The position numbers were made by a program, and so were the translations under genes. The notes under the pieces were generated by a model. That model saw nothing but the letters and a program-made list of their open reading frames with translations. It was not told the origin of the DNA and made no database searches. 64,000 nt of DNA from Diabrotica undecimpunctata (lineage: Eukaryota > Arthropoda > Insecta > Coleoptera > Chrysomelidae), in assembly GCF_040954645.1 (NCBI RefSeq), contig NC_092808.1:82771889-82835888 (forward strand). Direction: 5' to 3'. Below, in pieces: positions 2,460-33,835 of the stretch; within the stretch, counting starts at the first letter, position 1; each line of letters opens with the position of its first letter.

Positions 2460-4140
2460 TTTTGACGGATTGTTAACAACACATGCCATTTTTAAGTCAC
2501 GATACTTAAAATCACAGTCAAGGAAATGCTCGGTGTGAGATTTACAAACATAACTAACATTGCAGTACCTCAGTTGAGTGATCGTAATTTTAATTAAACA
2601 AGTGTATTTATAATAAAATAAAAGAAAAATAGGTTTTTAATAGTTTATTTTGAATATTTTGAAAATTATTATCGAAATCAAAAATAATTTCTCAACATCA
2701 TTCAATAGACCCTGCTAAACAAAAAACCCTAAATATCTGCATATCTGTAAATTTTATATTAATTTAAACCATACTCTAAAATTAATATTAAATAACTCGG
2801 CATTGATTTCTGTCTGTTTTTTTATTCCTTATAATTCTTCTTTTAGATTTTGTAAATTCAAACAATATTTGTTATATATTTTTTTTAGCTTTTTTTAACT
2901 TTAATTTTAGTATTCAGATAATATAAATTTGTTTTATATTTATATAAATAATATAGTTTTTCTTATTACTAGATTATTGTTTTTATTATTATTGTATGGT
3001 TAAGATACATGAGATACATGACCTCATATACCCAATACTTGAAATGTTAATATTTTATTCTAATTTCAATGTTTTTATAATTTTTCGGTTCTACATAATT
3101 TACAGTAAAATTAAGTTCTTTGTTAATAAATGCATTACTAGTTTGCTTTTACAAATAGTTCTCATAAAGGCTATTACCAATATGAGACTAAAATTTCAGG
3201 GTAATCTAAGAAAAAGAAGATATTTAAGGATTTTTGTTTAACATTATTAAAAATGACTATTTTAGGCATATTCGATTGTTTATATAATAAACATGTCAAA
3301 AAAATTAGGTATATATACCTATTCAATTTCGCTAGTTAATTAATAATTATTGGTTCCATTTTTAAAGTTTACATATTTCGACCAATGTGTGTAAATACAA
3401 ATTGTCGGATACTATATATTTATTATTGTACTAGGATATTAAATTTTTTACAAGTTTTTAAAATAATTATATTTATAATACATTTCAAAAAAGTTGGTTA
3501 CTACTTAATCAATAATACTATTCACATTATAGGCAACGGAACTTTCGGTATATATTTGAATTAATAAAACTAGATAATATATAATTTTAAAAATTATTAT
3601 ACCTAGTCCCCGCAGGCTAAGAAGAACCACACCAAATTATCATATTCGTTCCACTCCAACCTGAATGTGTACACACCGATCTCTACACGACATTTTATTA
3701 GGAATATGCCCCCATAACTGCATGAAACATTCAGAAATACTTAAAATGTACGTTGTTGGTTCGTCCTAGCTAGCGATTACTATACAAAGGGATATATTTT
3801 TTGAAATTTGTTGACTGATTGCTGGATGATCATAATGTATTTTTTTAGTTTCAGCCCAATGATACTAAGTACTACAAAAATGAACTACCCTTATATCTCA
3901 AGTACTGAAAGGAACATAATATGTATGTGTATTTGAATTTATATTTTAAGACATTTATTTATATAAATAATAATTGGTACAAAAGAAAAAATTAAACATA
4001 AATTACCAATACAATAAGTCATACTTAATAGTACCGGTGGTAAGTACATATTCTGGATAAAATGTGACTTAATTTTTTACTTGTTTACTTTTAAAACTTT
4101 TTAACCTAAACTAGACTTGTGATTTTGGGAATCGTTGTGT
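2460..4140. other. AT-rich intergenic DNA, no gene seen
   Basis: No open frame shows recognisable residues. At 3600-3780 the composition rises and the minus strand reads LWGHIPNKMSCRDRC in one frame, which may be the worn 3' end of another LINE. I cannot support more than that. Confidence 0.5.
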
Positions 4141-5678: not shown

Positions 5679-7024
5679 TTAGTTTTCGCAATCTCCTTTT
5701 TTATTTTCTACGTGAGTTCCTTTTAAAATCATTTGTATCTCTTCCAAAGTTTTACCCTTTGTTTCAGGTATAAATATGTAAGTAAATCCAGCGGCTATGA
5801 AGCAGCTAAACGAAAAAACGTAGAAGGGATATTGTAATCCAAAGTGTTGAGTTAATCTTTGATATACTTGTAAAGATAGTAATGAAGCTATAACATAAAA
5901 TCCATCTGCAATTGTCATACCGAAAGCCTTCATTTTAGTGGGAAATAGTTCGGCTGTGAGCACTATGGGTACCATACCCAGACCTAATTTAAAAGTTAAA
6001 GCATAGAGCATAACGCACACAATTGGAATCCAACTATAACTGGAAGTATCTGATCCACCATTTTTTAAACTGAAGTAAATTGCTAAAACGAGTAAACACA
6101 ACCCAGCTAACAAACTAGAGGTAATAAGTAAAGTTTTTCGACCATACTTATCTATAGTGAGGCAAGCAACTGACGCTGCCATCACCATTATAGCTGAAAA
6201 TAAAATCGCAGCCATTCGTGGCTGTATATAAATAGATCCAGCAGCGTCAAGAATAACATGAATGTTCATAAGTAAAACGCTAATGCTACTAAAATGTTGA
6301 GCTGCATTTAATAAGCCCATGATAAATATAGCTCGACGGTTGCTAGGAACTATAAAGAGATCAAAGATTCTACCTCGTTCTGATTTCTGCCGATCTACTG
6401 CTACCTTAATACTTTCTAATTCTTTTTCTATATCATGACCTTTTTTTCTTAACCTTTTTAGAGACTGAAGGGCTTCGTTTGGTTTGTCTTTATACAGTAA
6501 ATAATACGGACTTTCTGGCATAAAGGGAAAAATTATAAGTTCTGTTAAAGCTAAAGATCCTCCCAAAACACAATGAGCATAAAAAGGAATAAAAGGCGCT
6601 ACAGAATAAATTATAAGAATACCGACAAGCATCATAAGATAAATTAAACTGCTTAAAAAACCCCTTATTTTCTGTTCAGCTATTTCAGCAATATACATTG
6701 GCGTAGCTACAAAAGCCATATTTCCTGCTGATCCTGCAAATGCTCTAGCAACAAATATGTATTCTACTCTAGGAGCTACAGCCGTTACTATCCAAATAAT
6801 TATGGTCACAAATGAAGCTAAAAGAATGGATTTTTTTCTACCAATTTTGTCAACTAAATATATGGTTATCCAAAGTCCGGAAAAAGATCCAAGCATTAAT
6901 AAGTTTTCTAGCCATTCTGCCTGTGTGTTTGTAACTTTGACTGGAGAATTGGGTCCTTGAAGAATTGGTAATACAGGTGCTGTCCATCCATATTGCATTC
7001 CATCGCTGATGGCAGTTAAAGTTC
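5679..7024 (-). CDS. Tret1-like: Facilitated trehalose transporter Tret1-like, exon 3 (most of the protein)
   Basis: This exon encodes about 447 of an inferred 487 residues of a major-facilitator sugar transporter, which would move trehalose or another sugar across the plasma membrane. Visible family signatures, numbered on the full model: DKIGRKK at ~98 in the loop between membrane segments 2 and 3; EIAEQKIRG at ~152; PESPYYL at ~209; a charged central loop to ~260; DKYGRKT at ~331; AELFPTKMKAFG at ~397; and PETKGKTLEEIQ at ~459 near the end. Hydrophobic segments fit twelve membrane spans. The exon opens after an AG at 7025-7026, and the split glycine codon joins exon 2 to read LAGTLTAISDGMQYGW, a typical Tret1 first-membrane-segment sequence. 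The frame is intact, so the gene is probably functional. Exact substrate is not provable from sequence. Confidence 0.93.
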
Positions 7025-8210
7025 CTAAAATATAATTATTTCATTTAACAACAATATAATATGATATAAATTTAGAAATGTTTAATTTATATTAAATGTT
7101 TCTTTATTCGACCTACAATATTCCGTTTCAAAGCTCTCGCTAATAGATGAATCTTGATATACAGAAATTTAAACCCTTTAAGGCATTATTGTCATGTGAC
7201 AGATCAAAACCTCTTATGACTAGTATTTTTTAAATTTTATTTTTTTACGCCAATGAAATAAAAAATAATATCTTATTCTATTATGAGTAGATTCGTTAGA
7301 TTCCATTATTATAGATTTTTTTATTGTAAATTCTTATCTAGTAAACACGTTTCAAATTTTAATGAGCAAATATAATTTAGGGTATATTGTATAATGACAA
7401 AACACCGATTACGAAAGCTTTAAACCCTTAATATTAATTTTATTCAAAATGAAACCTATCTTTCTTGCTTATGTTAATATTGGTTTTTAATAGTTGATTT
7501 ATTAAAGCAACTGGACCTCAGCTGATAAGAAAATAATAAAAAAACTTTTAAATGTAAACTATTTTATACCAAAATATATGAAATACAGAACAGAAAATGA
7601 GTAAAATCCAAAATCAATAAAGAAAATAGGAGATCCCTGCAGAAATTCACGTCAGTAGATAATCAAAAACTCAAAACGCACTAAAGTTAAAGCTATTCTA
7701 CGAAAACTAAAACATAAAAAATATGCAAGAATAAATGAAATTGTAGCTGAAATGATAGTAGCCGACACATATATGCGACACAACTTGTTTGACATCTTAT
7801 GTCTGTAAATCTAAGGTATTGTTACGATAAATAATGACGTGTCATATGACTCAAAACTGTAAATATATTATGACTAATTCTTTTCTACTTCTAGTAATTT
7901 CGGCGCTCAGTTGAAAGACCTGTTTACCGGAATTATGATGAGTCACCCACGATTCGAAATTTCCAGGCAGGCCGAATAAAACCAGTCTGAGCTCTTCGAT
8001 GGGATCGCCGCAATTCTCGAATAGCGGGATTTTATATTTAAAGAGGAATTTTGTTGTAAACAGTAACAGTTATGGTATAATTTCACTATTTGAGAGAGTG
8101 ATTCATCGTTTAAAGGCGCAGAAATGCGGAAAGACTTATGAAAATCCAGTGATGTACACTCACTTCAATTTTAACGTTAATTATATTTTATTTTTCAAAT
8201 TTCGTTCGAA

Positions 8211-16742: not shown

Positions 16743-17021
16743 CTACTTATGATACTGATAAATGTCGTGAATGTTAAAATACCCCGTATATTGCCTGTCT
16801 TTATACGGGATTGGATATATCTTCGTTTTAAATTTTTCCAAGTATTTTCCCTTCAAAGAAAGTTCATAATTTTTAGCCACTCGGTTTACTTCATTAACAA
16901 GATCTCCATGGTTTCCTAAAATCTTCTCTATTTTCTTTCCCATGTTTTCTCCACAATTTATTTTTCTTTCATCCTCCTTTTGTTCACATGTGTTCACTGT
17001 CCATAATACTTGTTCACACAA
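16743..17021 (-). pseudogene. Pol remnant, stub of the reverse transcriptase N-terminus
   Basis: A 92-residue frame overlaps the end of gag-protease. Its end reads KYLEKFKTKIYPIPYKDRQ, similar to the strand before the first reverse transcriptase motif in Ty3/gypsy elements (TK.YPIP.K.RE). It then stops in unrelated sequence. I read this as pol cut off by a deletion. Confidence 0.4.
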
Positions 17022-18226
17022 AATTCTGGATTCTCGTCGATCAGTGCCATTTTTTCTTCTGTTTTCTTTTTATCCTCTAATTCCCTTTGGTATTCCGAGC
17101 ACCATGTTTCTATTCCTTTCATTTCTCTGATGATACCTTCTTTTTCTTCCTGCTTCCATTCTGTTTTATCGTCGGTTGCCAACAATTCTTCTGTACCTTC
17201 TATTTCCTGTTTTTCTCTGGTCTCCATCTTATTTTCCTGCTTTCTTTTCGAACTCTTCTTCTTTTTTTTTTTCTTCCTTCTCTTTTTCTCTTCTGTTAGA
17301 TCTTGTTCTTGTACTTTCGGTTTATCCTCTACAGTCATATCGATTTCTTTGCGTTTTTCCTGTGCATTGATCCTTCCAGAATTTGTTTTCCTATCTGTTT
17401 GCTTTTCTTCTCCTGTGTTGTCTGGTTCTGCTCTGATTTCCAGTTTATTTTCCGAAAAATTTATGGTGATATCTTTTTTCCTCAATTCATCAATTCCCGC
17501 TATCATATCATGATTTAAATCTTCAATCACCACACATTTCATAATATGGAATTTGTTTCCCACTCTTATCTGTACTCCCACACCTTCGTTTACTGTCGTC
17601 AAATTTTTATTGTTTGCACCCACTAAATCAACCCTAGGAATCTTATACACAAATCTGTCCAAATTTAATTCTTTTACTAGTTTTTTATTGATTAGCGATA
17701 TCTTCGAGCCAGAATCAATCACAATTTTAATCGCTTTATGTTTTATAAATGCATCTAAAAATATTAGATTAGAATTAGAAATTTGTCTTTCGTTTCCTAT
17801 TGCTACATGATTCATCTCCCTTCTATTTTGTTGTTGGAAGCTCTGGTTATTCCTATCGTCCCTTTGTTCGTTAGTATTCCTATTCGGAGGATTTTGTGCA
17901 TCTCTATTCCTGTTGTGATTTTCATTTGTTCTATTTTGTGTATCATTCCGGTTATCGTAATTTTGTTGTCTATTGTAATTATTGTAATTTCTCGGCCTAT
18001 ATTCGTTTGTTGATCTGGGATGTCGGTTTCTCTGGTCATAATTTGATGAATACCTTCTTTCCGGTTCATTGTATTGGTCATGTTGTCTTCTATTTCTCAT
18101 TTCTTTTCTTTTCGCTTCTTTTAATTGAAGGAATTGGCACAAACTATCAATATCTTGATAGTTTCTCAAAATCACGTGATCTTCCAACGTTTCCTCAAAA
18201 TGTCTGCTGATCATTTCTACCAGCTG
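16994..18226 (-). pseudogene. gag C-terminal part and aspartic protease of the gypsy-like element
   Basis: An open frame of about 406 residues. It starts with the end of the capsid-like part (MISRHFEETLEDHVILRNYQ), continues through an Asn/Arg/Gln-rich stretch in place of a zinc knuckle, and reaches the protease motif IVIDSGSKISLI (active-site DSG at ~residue 165) and later HDMIAGIDEL. It ends in a Lys/Glu-rich tail with seven lysines in a row. The N-terminal half of gag lies beyond the jockey insertion (22642-23463). The target duplication shows that the two halves were one frame. Confidence 0.75.
18216..18226. repeat. Target-site duplication, left copy (11 bp)
   Basis: TCTACCAGCTG, repeated exactly at 22631-22641. 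It brackets the jockey-type element. Confidence 0.9.
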
Positions 18227-18310
18227 GGCTTCTTGGCTTAGGTCCGAGCGACTGACGTCAAACAGCTACCCCAACCCAAGCCGGTCGGCGGTAAACCGAA
18301 CGGTTTAACA

Positions 18311-19744
18311 TTGTCCGAATTTGTTCATGTAAGAAATCAGGATATCTCTGATTTAGTCTTTTTCAAGACTAAAAAAGACGATAAAACTGTTTTTACTAAT
18401 AAAATTACAGATTTAATTTCAGCATCCAGTCCAATCAGACGGGAATTCCCACTCCACAGGAAGTTATTCAAGAACAAAAAATTCAGGCCCACCTCAAGGA
18501 GAGGTGGACCCGCCCAGGAACAGCTACAGGATAACGAAACAGAACAAGAAATAACATCAGTAGAAGAATCCACCACGATGGCTTCAAACAACGTAGAGAT
18601 CATGGAAGAAGAACCATTCCAGGCAGTGAAATGCCAGAGAAGAAATTCGAATGAAAACATAGCAGGAGCTAGACAGCGACCATCAACAAGTAGTGGAACG
18701 GTTAGAACTCAGAACCGTTATCAAGTTTTATCTACAATCAACACGGAAGAAACATCTTCTACGACGACAACCAGGAAAGAAAGAGTGCCCCCTCTGGTCA
18801 TTGCAGGACAAATTGGGAGTTATGCAACCTTCATCAAGGAAATAACGAAGTTATTAGGACACAATAACTTCCAAATTTCACCGTCCGGAAAAGCAGGTAC
18901 AAGGGTGTACCTAAAAACCAATGAAGATTACGAAAAACTTAAACAGGATTTCATTTCTACATCAACAGCCTTCCATACATTCACGAAGAAATCGGAAGTT
19001 ACGAAGAAAATCGTCATGAAAGCGGCCCCAGGATTGGACCTCGATGAAGTCGAAGCTGACCTCCGTGAACAAGGAATCATCGGAAAAGTCACAGAACTGA
19101 AAACCAGGAAACCAGGAGCACAAAGCAGCTCCTACCTGCTCCAAGTGGACAAACAACAGGATCTGAAGGAGATAAAAAGGATAAACGGTGTGCAAAACAT
19201 AAGAGTAAGATGGGACGCTTACTCTAAACCTTCCAGGGCAACGCAGTGTTTCAACTGCCAGGAGTTTGGACACTCTGCCAGAAACTGCTTCAAGCAACCT
19301 AGGTGCATGAAATGCGCCAACGGACATCAAACGAGACACTGCCCTCTCCCAAAAGGTCAGGTAAACAAAGTGAAGTGCTGTAACTGCCAGGAGGCACACA
19401 CTTCCAACTATCCAATGTGCAGCAAGCACATTGAGTACCTAGACAGGCAAGCTGCGAGAAGAGCGAGGAACCAACCGCAGAAAACGGCTCCACAAGCGCC
19501 TCATCCTTCAACCTTCAGAAAAACCACCAGCAGTGTATCATATGCACAAGCGAGCAAAGGAGAACAACAAACACCAAGGAATGATGGAGTCAAGAGCACC
19601 TGGGCTGAAATTAACGAAATAGTTAATGTACAGAAAATGATGGAAATTCTTCAAGATATGAAGAGAGAGCTACTACAGGCAAAATCATTTGCAGAAAAAG
19701 CAATGATTTTCATGAAATATGAAGAGATCTACAATGAACCATAA
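18311..19744 (+). CDS. Jockey-type ORF1, gag-like nucleic-acid-binding protein
   Basis: Open frame of 477 codons. The first ATG is at 18578 (MASNNVEIMEEE), giving a 388-residue protein; the open stretch from 18311 upstream lacks an ATG and may be read from another start or be leader. A pre-knuckle domain lies at 18800-19200 (PPLVIAGQIGSYATFIKEIT, then ISPSGKAGTRVYLKT), followed by three CCHC-like knuckles (CFNCQEFGHSARNC, CMKCANGHQTRHC, CCNCQEAHTSNYPMC). The C-terminus is a coiled coil. Such proteins coat the element RNA. The 3' end overlaps ORF2 by 26 bases. Confidence 0.88.
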   Translation: MSEFVHVRNQDISDLVFFKTKKDDKTVFTNKITDLISASSPIRREFPLHRKLFKNKKFRPTSRRGGPAQEQLQDNETEQEITSVEESTTMASNNVEIMEEEPFQAVKCQRRNSNENIAGARQRPSTSSGTVRTQNRYQVLSTINTEETSSTTTTRKERVPPLVIAGQIGSYATFIKEITKLLGHNNFQISPSGKAGTRVYLKTNEDYEKLKQDFISTSTAFHTFTKKSEVTKKIVMKAAPGLDLDEVEADLREQGIIGKVTELKTRKPGAQSSSYLLQVDKQQDLKEIKRINGVQNIRVRWDAYSKPSRATQCFNCQEFGHSARNCFKQPRCMKCANGHQTRHCPLPKGQVNKVKCCNCQEAHTSNYPMCSKHIEYLDRQAARRARNQPQKTAPQAPHPSTFRKTTSSVSYAQASKGEQQTPRNDGVKSTWAEINEIVNVQKMMEILQDMKRELLQAKSFAEKAMIFMKYEEIYNEP

Positions 19745-22412
19745 GCACCTGAAGATACTCCAGTTCAACATAGCATCACTGAGGCTAAGGATCAGCGAAC
19801 TTCGAGAGACAGTCGTAAGGCATAACCCAGATGTCATATGCCTGTCTGAAACAAGATACATGACGGACTCTCAACTTCCAAGGATAACAAACTACGATGG
19901 ATTCGGAAGAAGAGACGAACCAAACGACAGAGGAGTAGCCATCTATGTTAAGAACAACATAGAATGGAACCAGGTTTTGATGGATACACACCATTTCGAA
20001 AGTGTTGGAATCAAAGTAGGTATAGCTAATATCTTTTCAATTTACAGGAAGCACTCGGAAGAACTAGCCATAGAAGAACTGGATGCCTTACTCAACTCTG
20101 CACCAACCGTAGTCGTAGCAGGAGATTTCAACGCCAAACACACAGCATGGGGATGTATGACGGACACAGCACCAGGAACAACTCTACTAAGATACTGCGA
20201 GGACAGAGATAGGATGTTATTCGCTCCAGACGAACCAACAAGGATCAATCCAATAAGAGAACACAACAACTCAACACTGGACCTGTTCATCACCAAGGAT
20301 GTAATAATGGAAGACGTCAGAACATACTTCGAATGCAGTTCGGACCACAAGCCAGTAATAGGAAGGATGACATCGAGAGTCGACTTGCCAAGGATAGAAC
20401 CAGTAGAAAGATGGAGATGGAAAGATGCTAACTGGCCTAACTACAGAAGACAGCTAAACCAAATGGAAATGAAGAGAGAATTCCAATCAACAGAAGAAGT
20501 AGAAGAAAAGATCGAAGAAATCACAAGAAGAATCCAACGAGCAATGGAAGCCAACATCCCAAAATCCATGACGAACAACAGAGGACTGATCATCCCAACA
20601 GAGCTACAGGACATCATCAAGGATAGAAACAAGGCCAGACGAGCATTCCAAAGAACCAGAAGACAGGAATTCAAGGACTACGGAGACATCCTATCCGAAG
20701 AAATAAGAGTAAGACTGAGAAGTCTTACTGAAAACCAGTGGCACAACAACATCAGAAGAGCTGAAGAAAACCATGGAAACGTTTGGAAAATGCTGAAGGC
20801 AAGAAGAAGAGGAAAACAAAAGATGCCACAAATCATGGACAACGAGGGAACACACTACGACACCCAAGGAAAAGTTGATGCAATATCAAGGAAGATGGCA
20901 GCCACACACAGACAAAACCAGGATATGTCGGATGCAAGAACAAAGAGGAAAGTCGAGCAAGAATACAACAGGATCAGAAGAAGGAACGAGTTCCAAATAG
21001 ACGAGGAAGACCATATCAGCCCAAGCGAAGTTGCAAAAATCATCAGGAAACTGAAAGGAAGCAGAGCACCAGGACAAGAAGGAATTCACAACATCACCCT
21101 CAAGGAACTTCCGAAGAAGATCATAGTACAGCTGTACTATATCTTCAAATACTGCCTAGAAAAAGGACATTTTCCAAACAACTGGAAACACGCCAAGATT
21201 ATACCTCTTCTAAAACCAAGGAAAGATGGAAGAAGACCGGAAAGCTACAGGCCCATATCACTCCTGGAAACGATGGGAAAGATCTTAGAAAAAATCATCT
21301 ACAAGAGACTGGTGAAGCATACAGAAAGAAGAGGAGTCATCCAAGAAGACCAGTTTGGTTTCAGAAAAGGAAGAAACTGCGAACTCCAATTAGCAAGGAT
21401 CATCAGCGACACGAAGATAAAATTCAACAGGAAACAGAAGACAGGATTAGCCATACTGGACATAGAGAAAGCCTACGACACGGTTTGGAAGAAGGCACTA
21501 ATCTACAAGATGGACAAGGCTAGACTTCCACACTACCTCATCAACATCTGCGACATGTATCTATCTAATAGAACATTCCAAGTTTCAGCTGACCAAAAGA
21601 TGTCGACGATTCAAGAAATCCAGGAAGGAATGCCTCAGGGCAGCATTTTATCACCCATTTTATATAACATTTTTGTTTCAGACCTCCCTACAGATCCAAG
21701 GACTTCTACAGCCCTGTATGCAGACGACACAGCAGTGTATGCATCCGGAAAAGACGAAAGAAGAATCATAGATAACATGGAGAGCCACCTGGAAAGAATC
21801 ACGGACTACACCGAAAAATGGAAAATCAAGATCAACGCCGAAAAAACGCAGTTCATCATTTTCGGCCAGGATAGACGACAACTACGGAACCAGATCACAG
21901 TAGGAGACAACAGAATTCAGGAAACAGAGACGGTCAAATACCTAGGAGTCCACCTCGACAGAAAACTCAACTTCCGGATGCATACACAAAAAACTAAGGT
22001 AAAAGCTAATGCAGCTAAAAAACTAATACTTCCTTTCATTTTTAGGTCCAGTCCACTCTCGAAGGCGAAGAAAATTCAACTCTACCAAGCATATGTTAGG
22101 TCGGTGATTCTGTATGCTATACCAGTGTGGAGCTCCATTGCGGAATCACACTGGAAAAAGTTGGAAGCAACTGAGAACTCATGCTACCGAATCATCGACG
22201 GAACGGCATGGGAGGATAGAGTTACGAACGCGACAATCAAGAACAGGCTAGGATACACGCCACTAAGGGAAGTGGCCGAGAACAGAACCAGGTGGTTCTT
22301 CAACCAGGCCACTCGAAGACTGCGAAAGACCAGGGATATCCTCGAGAAGAACAGGATCCAGAGGATACACAGATCCACCCATAGACTGATCGACCACCTG
22401 ATCAGGGTCTAA
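19719..22412 (+). CDS. Jockey-type ORF2, endonuclease-reverse transcriptase
   Basis: 897 residues from the ATG at 19719, inside the end of ORF1; a second ATG is at 19734. An apurinic-type endonuclease occupies about residues 5-225: LKILQFNIASLR, VICLSETRY, VVAGDFNAKH, CSSDHKPVIG. Reverse transcriptase runs from about 440 to 730: KGSRAPGQEGI, SYRPISLLETMGKILE, DQFGFRKGRNCE, ILDIEKAYDTVW, EGMPQGSILSPILYNIF, and the catalytic YADDTAVYA. All catalytic residues I can check are present. It ends in a basic region with no RNase H domain, and its length is normal for the jockey group. It would nick the target and copy element RNA in place. The overlap with ORF1 suggests reinitiation. Confidence 0.93.
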   Translation: MKRSTMNHKHLKILQFNIASLRLRISELRETVVRHNPDVICLSETRYMTDSQLPRITNYDGFGRRDEPNDRGVAIYVKNNIEWNQVLMDTHHFESVGIKVGIANIFSIYRKHSEELAIEELDALLNSAPTVVVAGDFNAKHTAWGCMTDTAPGTTLLRYCEDRDRMLFAPDEPTRINPIREHNNSTLDLFITKDVIMEDVRTYFECSSDHKPVIGRMTSRVDLPRIEPVERWRWKDANWPNYRRQLNQMEMKREFQSTEEVEEKIEEITRRIQRAMEANIPKSMTNNRGLIIPTELQDIIKDRNKARRAFQRTRRQEFKDYGDILSEEIRVRLRSLTENQWHNNIRRAEENHGNVWKMLKARRRGKQKMPQIMDNEGTHYDTQGKVDAISRKMAATHRQNQDMSDARTKRKVEQEYNRIRRRNEFQIDEEDHISPSEVAKIIRKLKGSRAPGQEGIHNITLKELPKKIIVQLYYIFKYCLEKGHFPNNWKHAKIIPLLKPRKDGRRPESYRPISLLETMGKILEKIIYKRLVKHTERRGVIQEDQFGFRKGRNCELQLARIISDTKIKFNRKQKTGLAILDIEKAYDTVWKKALIYKMDKARLPHYLINICDMYLSNRTFQVSADQKMSTIQEIQEGMPQGSILSPILYNIFVSDLPTDPRTSTALYADDTAVYASGKDERRIIDNMESHLERITDYTEKWKIKINAEKTQFIIFGQDRRQLRNQITVGDNRIQETETVKYLGVHLDRKLNFRMHTQKTKVKANAAKKLILPFIFRSSPLSKAKKIQLYQAYVRSVILYAIPVWSSIAESHWKKLEATENSCYRIIDGTAWEDRVTNATIKNRLGYTPLREVAENRTRWFFNQATRRLRKTRDILEKNRIQRIHRSTHRLIDHLIRV

Positions 22413-28559: not shown

Positions 28560-30150
28560 TGGTATTCTAAATGTAAAAAACGTACCCAAGCTGTGACATA
28601 AATTCAGATCACAATCCTGTAGTAGCAACTATCCGATTAAAACCTAAAAGAGTAGACAAGTCTAAACCCAGTTAGAGAATAGCATGGATTAGTGCAGACC
28701 AAGTACAGCAACAAAAGTATGAAGACATGGTAGACAAGCGGTAAGAGTCTAAGACAATAGCTCCCACTAAGGAGAAGACAATAAAAGAAAACATTAAAGA
28801 CATGATTTCCGAAGTGGAAATTGAAACGTCAATAAACGTATTTTAACCTTTAATTGTGGCTTATTCCCATTTAAATAGTAATTAATGTGAGGGAAAATTA
28901 AAAATACTGTCTTGGAGGCAGCAGACCAAAGTATACAGAAAGAAACCCGTAAACATAAAAAACCATGGATGACAAACGAAATATTACAAATTATGGAGAG
29001 GAGAAGGATGATAAAAAACAAAAACCTAACAAGATACAAGGAACTCAACAGGGAAATTGAGAAAAAAATAAATGTAGCTAAGGAAAAGTGGATGAAAGAA
29101 AAATGTAAAGAGGTAGAAGATTTGCAAATAAAGCATAATGATAGAGAACTACACAGAAAGGATAAAGAAGTAGCTGGAATATGTAAATCCAAACACTTGG
29201 AATTAGACACAGGTGAAAAATTACACACATAGATACAGGTGAAAAATTAAACATTCTCACCGAAGAAGTTTTGAAGGCAATAAAAGACGCAAAGAGCAAC
29301 AAGGCACCCGGCGAAGACCTAATAACAGCCGAACATTTTAAACACCTAAGTGATAATGCTGTCAGGAAATTAAAATTCATCTACAACGTTATATATGAAC
29401 ATGGCATAATGCCGCATGACTGGCTAGCATCCACAATATATAGCTCTTCCTAAAAAGTAAAAGCAAGGAAATGTGAAGACCATCGAACTGTATCCCTAAT
29501 GAGTCATGCCGCTAAGATTTTTATGCGAATAATTTATAACCGAATTCACAATAAGTGTGAAGAATACCTGAGTCGTTCTCAATATGGTTTTAGAAAGGGT
29601 ACAGGCAATAGAGAAGCAATTATGGGATTGACACTGATGGCAGAAAGGTATCTTGAGGTTCAAGAACGGCTGTATGTGTGCTTTGTCGATTATAGAAAGG
29701 CCTTCGACCGCATCAAACACGGAAAATTGATTGAGGTGCTAAAAGAAGTAGGGTTGGACGGACACGACATAGCTATCATAAGTATTACATACTGGAACCA
29801 CACAGGATGCGTTCGAACAGAAAACGGAAACACCAAGTACATAAATATAGAACGAGGAGTGCGTCAAGGGTGCATTTTATCCCCCCTATTATTTAATGTA
29901 TATGCCGAACATATAATCAGAGCTTCTCTTGAAGATCGCCCTGAAGGTGTCAGAGCCAATGGAATCATCATTAACAATATGAGATACGCCGATGCCACCG
30001 TAGTATTAGCGGAGATAAAAGACTAACTAAAAATATTAATGAACATATTATCAGAAGAAAGTCACAGGCTGGGTTTGGACATTTTCCATAACCAAAATTC
30101 TGGTATTCCACAAAAACCCCCATGAACAAGTTACACCTATCATACAAATA
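28560..30150 (+). pseudogene. LINE ORF2, 5' and central part (endonuclease end to reverse transcriptase)
   Basis: Starts in the end of an endonuclease domain (INSDHNPVVATIRLKPK). It is interrupted at ~28801-28885 by an arm of a foldback repeat and resumes as KPWMTNEILQIMERRRMIKN with a coiled coil. A 5-bp-scale disruption near 29232 follows. Reverse transcriptase motifs: SNKAPGEDLITAEHFK, VSLMSHAAKIFMRII, SQYGFRKGTGNREAI, CFVDYRKAFDRIKH, GVRQGCILSPLLFNVY, MRYADATVVLAE. The catalytic YADD is YADA, so the second aspartate is lost. The element is split by the 3-kb palindrome and ends at 33180-33830. Confidence 0.8.
28801..28885 (+). repeat. Single arm of the foldback repeat family
   Basis: Contains ATTTCCGAAGTGGAAAT, TGAAACGTCAATAAACG, CTTTAATTGTGGCTTATTCC and CATTTAAATAGTAATTA, the same sequence as the right arm of 59219-59725 and, inverted, 41290-41400. 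It lies inside the LINE between the endonuclease and the linker. Confidence 0.75.
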
Positions 30151-30226
30151 AATAAAAGAGGTTAGTCTTTGTATGTGGGTATATTTTATTTTATGAAAAT
30201 CCTTAAAAGGGCAACATTAAAAGCAC

Positions 30227-30258
30227 GAACGTTTTCGGAACAACTGTTCCATCATCAG
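30227..30258 (-). ncRNA. Hammerhead-like motif, left arm
   Basis: Minus strand: CTGATGA, T, stem GGAAC/GTTCC with loop AGTT, GAA, AACGTT, C. It has the conserved strands CTGATGA and GAA and a possible 2-bp stem III with cleavage after the last C. The extra T before stem II and a weak stem I argue against strong activity. Confidence 0.4.
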
Positions 30259-33069
30259 GTTAAAATACCTAAAATAAGTATAAACCATTTAATTACAGCA
30301 AACGTGGTTTAAAATTTTGACTAAGGTTAAAGAAACAATAAAATGGTTTTACTTACAGGTTACCATGCCTGAGCCACCAAAATATTTGGGTAAAAACCCT
30401 TTAAAATGAAATGTGTTACCAAAGATTGTACATGATGTTAATAATATTATATGATGTTTAATATTTTAATTAGATTTTACTTCAGGTAACATACACCCAT
30501 GCTTAAGTGAGTTCCAGTGTCCGGAGAGTAAACCTCTTCAAACGGACTTCAGCTGGCAACTGATTGATAAGACACCTATGAACGGTGTCAAAAACAAAAT
30601 GTCAATGAACCATGAAACAGTGTTAGTTAAACATTATATTACTACAGCCAAAAGATTAAAAAACTTTGATGATGTTAAAATGATAACAGCAATCCAGGTG
30701 TTGGGTTTTAAAAATTTTTTCTATAATTATTTAATATTGAATATAAAAGATGTAAATTACTGGTGTTGTTGAAGGTCATGTTTAAGAGGATGACGTATGC
30801 ATTAGGCAGCTTATGTTACTCTTTATCGTATGGAGTGTGGTCTAAAAGGTGTAATTTGTGACGAATTAGCTGAAATATATGGAAATGTCCTTTTATGTTG
30901 CTTACATCTAAGACAAGGAAAAATAAATAGAATATATTTGTAGCTAATGTAAGACTTCGTATGTAGATGAAATTGTTTAATACTGCTTGTATCGTAAAAA
31001 TTTTTAATATAAGTGAGTCCAATCGATTGAGAAAAGGAATTGAAAATCTTCCGGCTGAAGGAATTAAAGTTATAATATATGTGATTAAATTTAAAAATTT
31101 GAAAAGGCTGAGATCCTCAGAGACCTGGCAGGAATAAAAGTAAAAAGACTAAAGAATAAAGGAGAGTGGGTTAAAGGGAAATGAATGAGTTAATCAACAA
31201 AATTAGAGATGATAGAGGTCCTTCATGCTTAAAGCATCTAGCACCCTGAATAAAATATATTTTCTGAATGTGAATTCTGATGAATTGCTGGATTGTGTTT
31301 AAATATTTACTGAGTTTAGAACTAATGAGTGGATGGTAGATATATGAAAAGACAGAGAACTAGTAAAAGAAAAAGAATGGACAGGAATATGATGTAAACG
31401 TAAAGATTGTAAGATAATGAAATAGTGAGGTATAATAGATATGATGTTAACAATAGGGGGCTGAAAAATTCTTTTGGAGGGAGTGTTGTGACAGTAGTGT
31501 AGACAGAATGGTTGTTTTAAAAAGCAACAATTGTTGAGAAGGATTAAGGTGTTGACGTGTATAGAGGAAGGTCAATTTTAGAAAATTTCTAAAATTAGAT
31601 CTATATGAAGACTTGGAAATAGTCAAGGAAAAGCAAAGAAGCCCCAACTGCGTTAATCGCCATGTATCTTTCAACCGTGACTTTCAACCCTTACACCGAC
31701 AACTCTTCTCATAACCCACACTTCTCAAATTTATCCCATCTTCTTTATCTGACCTTCCTCTATACACGTCAACACCTTAATCCTTCTCAACAATTGTTGC
31801 TTTTTAAAACAACCATTCTCTCTACACTACTGTCACAACACTCCCTTCAAAAGAATTTTTCAGCCCCCTATTGTTAACATCATATCTATTATACCTCACT
31901 ATTTCATTATCTTACAATCTTCACGTTTACATCATATTCCTGTCCATTCTTTTTCTTTTACTAGTTCTCTGTCTTTTCATATATCTACCATCCACTCATT
32001 AGTTCTAAACTCAGTAAACATTTAAACACAATCCAGCAATTCATCAGAATTCACATTCAGAAAATATATTTTATTCAGGGTGCTAGATGCTTTAAGCATG
32101 AAGGACCTCTATCATCTCTAATTTTGTTGATTAACTCATTCATTTCCCTTTAACCCACTCTCCTTTATTCTTTAGTCTTTTCATTTACTTTTATTCCTGC
32201 CAGGTCTCTGAGGATCTCAGCCTTTCCAAATTTTTAAATTTAATCACATATATTATAACTTTAATTCCTTCAGCCGAAAGATTTTCAATTCCTTTTCTCA
32301 ATCGATTGGACTCACTTATATTAAAAATTTTTACGATACAAGCAGTATTAAACAATTTCATCTACATACGAAGTCTTACATTAGCTACAAATATATTCTA
32401 TTTATTTTTCCTTGTCCTAGATGTAAGCAACATAAAAGGACATTTCCATATATTTCAGCTAATTCGTCACAAATTACACCTTTTAGACCACACTCCATAC
32501 GATAAAGAGTAACATAAGCTGCCTAATGCATACGTCATCCTCTTAAACATGACCTTCAACAACACCAGTAATTTACATCTTTTATATTCAATATTAAATA
32601 ATTATAGAAAAAAAATTTAAAACCCAACACCTGGATTGCTGTTATCATTTTAACATCATCAAAGTTTTTTAATCTTTTGGCTGTAGTAATATAATGTTTA
32701 ACTAACACTGTTTCATGGTTCATTGACATTTTGTTTTTGACACCGTTCATAGGTGTCTTATCAATCAGTTGCCAGCTGAAGTCCGTTTGAAGAGGTTTAC
32801 TCTCCGGACACTGGAACTCACTTAAGCATGGGTGTATGTTACCTGAAGTAAAATCTAATTAAAATATTAAACATCATATAATATTATTAACATCATGTAC
32901 AATCTTTGGTAACACATTTCATTTTAAAGGGTTTTTACCCAAATATTTTGGTGGCTCAGGCATGGTAACCTGTAAGTATAACCATTTTATTGTTTCTTTA
33001 ACCTTAGTCAAAATTTTAAACCACGTTTGCTGTAATTAAATGGTTTAAACTTATTTTAGGTATTTTAAC

Positions 33070-33101
33070 CTGATGATGGAACAGTTGTTCCGAAAACGTT
33101 C
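33070..33101 (+). ncRNA. Hammerhead-like motif, right arm
   Basis: Exact inverted copy of 30227-30258, pointing outwards on the plus strand. Confidence 0.4.
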
Positions 33102-33171
33102 GTGCTTTTAATGTTGCCCTTTTAAGGGTTTTTATAAAATAAAATATACCCACATACAAAGACTAACCTCT

Positions 33172-33835
33172 TTTGTTATACGTGGTATACAGCTAGCTAC
33201 AGGATTTATTTTCCTTGTGGATACAAATAAATGGTATCACCATTCACATATACAGAGAACTAAATAGTCAAGTAGACCATGGAAAAGAAATTAGAAAACG
33301 CTTTGAAATAGCAAGATTTGGTTTCATGAATATGCGTAAAATGCACTGTAACCCCAAGATATCAGTCTCAATAAGATTGAAAACACTAAAGTGTTATGTG
33401 TGATCTCTATTACTATATGACTGCGAGACCTGAACATTAAAACAATATGACATCAAGAAATTAAATTCGTGTGAAATGTACCGCCGAATGCTAAGAATAA
33501 GCTAGACCAGCAGAACTACGAATGAAGAAGTACTGAGAGCAATGAACACACGCCCTCATCTGGTCAATACTATTAAAATTAGAAAGACGTCATATGTATG
33601 ACACATAATGCGCCATAGGGAATTTGAGCAGCTCTGGGTAATATTAGAAAGCAAGACTAAAGGTAAAAGGGGCATAGGACAAAAAAAAACCTTGGCTACG
33701 AAACATCAGAGATTGGACCCACACAAGAGGAAATGAATTAATTCATCAAGCCCAGAAGACAGAGAAATTTGCCATATTGATCGCCAACCTCAACAGAGAA
33801 GGCACTTAGGAGGACGAGGAGTGTTGTCGAAATAA
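33172..33835 (+). pseudogene. LINE ORF2, C-terminal part (continuation of 28560-30150)
   Basis: Reads VDHGKEIRKRFEIARFGFMN, MRKMHCNPKISVSIRLKTLK, CYV, then DIKKLNSCEMYRRMLRI, SRTTNEEVLRAMNTRPHLVN, TIKIRKTSYV.HIMRH and KGKRGIG. A last stretch matches RDWT..TGNELIHQAQ, FA.LIANLNREG. The order follows directly from the reverse transcriptase before the palindrome, so this is the second half of the same copy. Stops are frequent. Confidence 0.75.

Follow-up and report, generated by a model that had tools for sequence, protein, structure and literature searches.

Head-to-head Penelope-like elements (PLEs), tails on one side only and PLE hammerhead ribozymes are already known. Here, we describe such an element from the beetle Diabrotica undecimpunctata, based on a 3-kb near-perfect palindrome in a 64,000-nucleotide stretch of contig NC_092808.1 (the window). 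Two papers bear directly on how inverted PLE structures arise. For the PLEs of A. vaga, a 2013 study put forward self-priming, in that case with an antisense template (PMC3846280). The lizard PLE protein Poseidon PAc (Anolis carolinensis) cleaves and extends both target strands in vitro and starts inside its RNA at two adjacent sites, with a tail between them, and its ribozyme cleaved only together with the protein (PMC11167929). The steps after first-strand synthesis were called not yet validated there in 2024, the passages of that paper covered here contain no model for the inverted structure, and in the passages covered both papers leave the origin of inverted PLEs open. Within the literature that we covered on PLE priming (inverted, both-strand, or twin), which leaves out the early Penelope structural papers, these two were directly relevant; a twin model may therefore already be in print. 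New here are the counts behind the rule that a two-ended insertion has one tail, the coupling of 5′ ends, and the kinship of sister arms.

The palindrome is, with near certainty, one insertion of a GIY-YIG PLE. It consists of two 3′ parts of the element, each truncated on its 5′ side, that meet at their 5′ ends within one 12-bp target site duplication (Table 1). The arms are 98.7% identical over 1424 positions with a single 4-nt indel (30151–31574 against 31750–33177, as aligned), and a gap-free scan gave 99% over 994 nt and 96% over 462 nt; this bears out the near-identical arms of ~1.43 kb described in a sequence-only reading of the window. The edges given in that reading (30157–33171) were near but slightly short, as the tail and the target duplication set the insertion at 30154–33220. 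The right copy extends ~170 nt deeper into the open reading frame (ORF) than the left copy. Because the end of the PLE ORF lies at the inner edge of the right copy (31580–31711), the palindrome is read as two outward-pointing 3′ parts. The same reading rightly saw no transposase or reverse transcriptase domain but overlooked this ORF remnant, which is all that the window copy keeps of the 843-residue PLE protein.

Table 1. Features of the palindromic insertion and its surroundings (window positions)
Feature	Position	Strand	Basis or remark
Whole insertion (two 5′-truncated PLE copies, head-to-head)	30154..33220		3067 bp; arm alignment, end comparison, empty sites
Left PLE copy (inverted 3′ part, pseudo-LTR)	30154..31574	-	Tail-less 3′ end B; 5′ end ~31574
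Right PLE copy (ORF end, pseudo-LTR, and tail)	31580..33220	+	5′ edge approximate
Tail (extension to start site A)	33175..33220 (start ~33175)	+	On right end only
Junction of both 5′ ends	31574..31596		23-bp imperfect palindrome (snap-back), 95.7% over 23 nt
Last 44 codons of PLE ORF (residues 800–843)	31580..31711	+	Inside right copy; tblastn of P0001, 95% identity
Hammerhead-like motif, left copy	30227..30258 (exact pattern 30229–30258)	-	Pattern scan
Hammerhead-like motif, right copy	33070..33101 (exact pattern 33070–33099)	+	Pattern scan
TCAGTT, putative transcription start in left copy	30558..30563	-	5′-end pile-up of other copies; position by eye
TCAGTT, putative transcription start (A at 32767)	32765..32770	+	5′-end pile-up of other copies; position by eye
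Left copy of 12-bp target site duplication ATACAAATAAAT	30142..30153		Single in empty LINE copies L138, L139, L140
Right copy of 12-bp target site duplication ATACAAATAAAT	33221..33232		Comparison with empty LINE copies
Reverse transcriptase ORF of host LINE (RVT_1, 1.6e-23)	29454..30023	+	Left of insertion

The sequence-only reading placed the palindrome inside a long interspersed nuclear element (LINE), which is confirmed by the adjacent RVT_1 domain and by three LINE copies elsewhere, in which the 12-mer ATACAAATAAAT occurs once and the LINE sequence continues uninterrupted past the empty site. Two successive insertions were rejected as an explanation, as both arms lie within one target duplication. 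A LINE-style 5′ inversion was also rejected, as both arms represent the same 3′ part rather than adjacent parts. An assembly inversion at this locus is unlikely, because the arms vary at single bases, the flanks differ, a target duplication is present, and the build contains many similar loci. As an account of the structure, a false inverted duplication made by the assembler has hardly any credibility: one aberrant locus discussed later (L054) could be such a case, but the single-base differences and unlike flanks speak against it, the target duplication and the empty LINE copies are what a single insertion would leave, and the same rule-bound structure recurs at the other loci that were read.

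The family was identified through longer relatives. When the genome (1.74 Gb) was searched with one arm, 109 matches were obtained from 40 scored candidates of 2030, and many of these are inverted pairs enclosing DNA of varying length. Single-ended and tandem copies occur as well. The longest relative (C2:60.419-60.430 Mb) contains two outward-facing open frames of 867 aa (stop to stop). The scanned frame (L032) matches RVT_1 (3.9e-13) and GIY-YIG (PF01541; E 0.005, 17.5 bits), the latter falling below the curated 22.6 and being weak alone; PF01541 is also present in some of the 120 listed relatives of the PLE protein. Homologues numbered 928 of 7986 scored at E ≤ 1e-10 (120 listed), the best match being a D. 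undecimpunctata protein with 99% identity over the 645-aa query, and a PDB search returned five distant reverse transcriptases. A search of phage records gave no match, and seven candidates yielded no relative (E ≤ 10) of an 81-aa peptide read from one arm. Direct pseudo-long terminal repeats (pseudo-LTRs, pLTRs) formed by tandem units are seen in L031/L032, in L049, and in an array at C1:10.48 Mb. Together with the PLE-kind reverse transcriptase ORF, the GIY-YIG domain, the inverted pLTR with one tail, and the short target duplication, these complete the features of a canonical PLE. A second PLE family (family 2, P0006), located via the protein, shows 60% identity to the 645-aa query.

These results also bear on the two origins suggested in the sequence-only reading. 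The first, a family of noncoding transposons of the foldback or long-terminal-inverted-repeat type, would account for the long, nearly perfect inverted arms and for the scarcity of coding sequence in the window copy. In such families, a transposase or what is left of one is flanked by terminal inverted repeats that are fixed; here, arm length varies between loci along with the 5′ end, longer relatives encode reverse transcriptase and GIY-YIG in their coding part, and single-ended and tandem copies occur. We consider this alternative extremely improbable, and no foldback transposon family was found. The other suggestion, a head-to-head dimer of a noncoding retroelement, had the geometry right, two copies being joined 5′ end to 5′ end, and its hint at Penelope was correct: longer relatives carry a reverse transcriptase and GIY-YIG ORF enclosed by their arms. 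"Noncoding" has to be dropped for the family in view of the 867-aa frame and the matching beetle protein.

In the passages covered, the beetle PLE resembles Pen2a_Av of A. vaga (PMC3846280) in its ORF with reverse transcriptase and GIY-YIG, its direct and inverted pLTRs, its target duplication, an optional tail on one inverted pLTR, head-to-head order, and palindromes at junctions. The beetle pLTR is ~1.5 kb long, compared with 218 bp in Pen2a_Av; the beetle genome contains 1,849 exact copies of the hammerhead-like motif described later, whereas A. vaga has very few copies, and many beetle copies, unlike Pen2a_Av, lack most of the ORF. With Poseidon PAc (PMC11167929), the beetle PLE shares two neighboring 3′ start sites that lie in an AC-rich stretch and have the tail between them, tandem units, and AT-rich targets. 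The hammerhead layout, by our reading, is also the same, with an ATG at the start of stem II and a cut 26 nt on; in the beetle, unlike PAc, this ATG opens a frame of only 11–12 codons (by eye), and the annotated ORF begins later. PAc is known from in vitro assays, the beetle PLE from sequence alone.

Twin target-primed reverse transcription (TPRT) of one RNA from both nicks is the explanation of the insertion that we favor, and we think it probable. The PLE protein would nick both target strands ~12 bp apart, and each nick would prime reverse transcription on the same element RNA. One strand would start at a site A, thereby acquiring the tail, and the other at the adjacent site B, without a tail. 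Both complementary DNAs (cDNAs) would then reach the 5′ end of the RNA or halt sooner, and their free 3′ ends would be joined, often via a short snap-back or templated filler, to give the palindrome. The simultaneity of these steps, the use of a single RNA molecule, and the role of the protein are inferred.

The first line of evidence concerns the 3′ ends. Family 1 has two sharp 3′ ends, B (closing on ...AACCTCTTTT) and A, ~50 nt beyond it, the stretch between them being the tail. In clusters with a single hit (50 in all), 38 ends were read, of which 17 are A, 17 are B, and four are obscured by divergence. Two-ended family 1 insertions, including the one in the window, carry the tail at exactly one end in 34 of 35 loci read, or 33/33 without L054, in which one flank is an inverted copy of the other, and L046, which shares the flanks of L035 as a duplicated locus. 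Of the 33 loci, 13 stem from the best arm-query matches (the window included), and the other 20 were drawn from among the first 100 motif sites. L041, among the 13, also belongs to the motif sites; L040, L043, L048, L049, and L050, with one end read each, stand outside the count, and of the 20 divergent neighbor pairs among those motif sites, all but C1:43662628 were retrieved. The family 2 set consists of 43 hits of ≥94% identity, with two split hits merged and the hits at 53–67% (family 1-like) excluded; both ends were read for seven of its nine divergent pairs, with C241 and the C4 array omitted. All seven have one long and one short end, lying 8–16 nt and 77–86 nt, respectively, before the ORF ATG. 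Exactly one tailed end is thus found in 40/40 counted loci of both families, which by arithmetic has a chance of ~1e-12 if the probability of one tail is one half (1.2e-10 for 33/33).

This rule bears on self-priming, in which a single cDNA from one nick folds back and copies itself into the inverted arm. Under self-priming, the second arm would be expected to contain the tail again and to continue into flanking sequence, yet exactly one tailed end is what all 40 counted loci have. Tail-less copies with matching flanks and no visible partner arm (L114 and L118) also speak against it and show B to be a start site on its own. The axes of the palindromes can be read both ways. In 16 loci picked as symmetric, the axis loops are 1–55 nt, as self-priming would have it, and junctions often contain snap-back or repeated filler. 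The window junction has 23 bp of it, L056 has a 7-mer in three copies, and L117, L121, and L128 have short inverted stretches at the start site. The loop is 1 nt in L057, too tight for a single strand to fold, and 2 nt in L039 by eye (the program value, 55, is owing to mismatches farther out), and such loops suit the joining of two molecules. Taken together, we regard self-priming as unlikely for this insertion.

The flanks point to a single event, and the orientation of neighbors fits the head-to-head geometry. At least 9 bp are common to both flanks in 23/28 two-ended family 1 loci, compared with 10/754 mismatched pairs; in family 2, 12–16 bp are common in 7/7 loci read at both ends, a count standing without a control of its own, as the mismatched-pair control is for family 1. 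Neighboring motif pairs within 12 kb (n = 29, first 100 listed sites) are oriented −+ in 20 cases, −− in five, ++ in four, and +− in none, eight of the 29 coming from one array; for family 2, the numbers are nine −+, two −−, and no +−.

The second line of evidence is the coupling of 5′ ends. The inner (5′) ends of paired arms are ≤60 nt apart in 17/31 loci, compared with 3.6 expected under partner shuffling (C2, the array, L046, L048, L054, and L069/L070 excluded). When loci with an end at the start-site hotspot were also excluded, 11/21 remained coupled against 2.1 expected, a value reached in 0/20,000 permutations. In family 2, 4/5 truncated pairs match within 20 residues (p 0.0013). Sister arms, moreover, share a source: they differ by 0.8% on average, compared with 3.2% between loci, and are mutual nearest relatives in 11/15 loci. 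Both results go against two independent reverse transcription events in which two different RNAs were copied at the same target and repair united the products. In support of this idea, the 5′ ends lie >60 nt apart in 14/31 loci, and L044, L045, and L047 contain hints of differing templates; within-pair differences are mainly private, the few shared ones occurring notably in L044 and L045. With coupling far beyond chance, we consider two RNAs improbable, more so than self-priming. In L047 (C266:12600-15900), the arms differ by 2.7% though enclosed by a 13-bp flank match, and two templates may have served. L035 (C11:23.49 Mb) and L046 (12.26 Mb) have the same insertion and flanks in opposite orientation 11 Mb apart, which represents a duplication; the left arm of L046 carries a deletion relative to L035.

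Twin priming is favored over self-priming because of the one-tail rule, the coupled 5′ ends, and the mutual-nearest arms. Several observations weigh against it. Self-priming equally predicts that arms are symmetric, that fillers are of the snap-back kind, and that sister arms resemble each other (including the 11/15 mutual-nearest pairs), and a clear target duplication is not seen in 5/28 loci. The tail-less end lies off B in L063 (−63), L041 (−17), and L058 (−11), and in 4/15 loci (L035, L046, L045, and L047) one arm has a relative at another locus that is at least as close as its sister arm. L054 (C1:9858070-9859280) is tailed at both ends with mutually inverted flanks, as self-priming would yield; it is the sole two-ended copy read with both tails and the sole locus read with inverted-copy flanks, and either self-primed foldback formation or faulty assembly would account for it. 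Finally, PMC11167929 reported no strand difference in start site for its assay, which leaves a strict A/B split unexplained.

We extend this model to canonical PLEs at large only tentatively, at slightly less than an even chance: a pair of protein subunits on one RNA would open both target strands, the A/B split and head-to-head joining would make palindromes a normal product, and from multi-unit templates an inverted array of ~34 kb that carries nine pseudo-LTR ends could arise in one event. Such an array (C1:10484380-10518460; L071, L072, L068, and L131–L137) has four minus and then five plus motif copies ~4.19 kb apart. One outer end is tailed and the other tail-less, and with GGTATTTTT(C) at both flanks (by eye), the array apparently lies within one target duplication. 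Nine 1-kb segments, one per unit, show no substitution; four indel columns differ, and a T run accounts for three. The array may have been copied from a multi-unit template in a single event or may have expanded afterwards. The one-tail rule (40/40) and the coupled 5′ ends provide a sharp, testable signature favoring both-nick priming on one RNA, and the ~1,850 exact motif copies of the beetle genome are material for testing the rule.

A hammerhead-like motif, a putative ribozyme, lies near the 3′ end of each PLE copy, ~70–75 nt upstream of B. As noted in the sequence-only reading, it is present at both ends of the palindrome; both copies are exact, and 100 shuffles of the window contain none. 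Genome-wide, the exact motif occurs 943 times on the plus and 906 times on the minus strand (reversed control pattern, 0), and 210 further sites have the same core with a different stem. Stem II is supported by covariation, with 148/186 cells paired and 0/5000 shuffles matching (the shuffles ignore relatedness), and is fully paired in 60/96 variants. This analysis used 96 of 100 listed variants, 62 of them distinct; four were dropped for length, and the core was set by the pattern. Family 2 has a different stem II, also paired, and the same T before it. This extra T, like the weak stem I, had been flagged in the sequence-only reading as a doubt: it recurs in family 2, which was located via the protein, its presence at the 210 sites is by construction because the pattern fixes it, and a pattern without it and with one A fewer after GAA matched one site. 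Stem I is 2 bp by eye. An Rfam search at the gathering threshold and permissive E-values gave no hammerhead. The RNAfold minimum of the motif region contains stem II and lacks the hammerhead fold, with a stability not notably above shuffles (z −0.61 and −1.16). We use "hammerhead-like" because stem I is weak and Rfam gave no match. The cut would fall at 33101/33102, and the ATG at 33076 lies 26 nt away from it (by eye). According to PMC7761336, minimal type I PLE hammerheads have the same core of CTGATGA, stem II, and GAAA in the pLTR and almost no stem III; the beetle motif differs in the missing Rfam match, the 2-bp stem I, and the T before stem II.

In 8/20 single-hit clusters read inwards, the 5′ end is at unit position 3779–3781 (CAG of AATCAGTTGCC). 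TCAGTT looks like an arthropod initiator, and the pile-up there thus like the 5′ end of the RNA.

Elsewhere in the window, a long ORF at 19716–22406 has endonuclease and reverse transcriptase domains (LINE), with a zinc-knuckle ORF ahead of it (18242–19738). The latter abuts a minus-strand ORF with an aspartyl-protease domain (16997–18265), perhaps an LTR-retrotransposon remnant. A minus-strand ORF at 5682–7040 has a sugar-transporter (MFS) domain, and a minus-strand open frame of 472 codons at 1–1416 runs to the window edge, with tandem repeats of 21–54 nt at 1243–1451.
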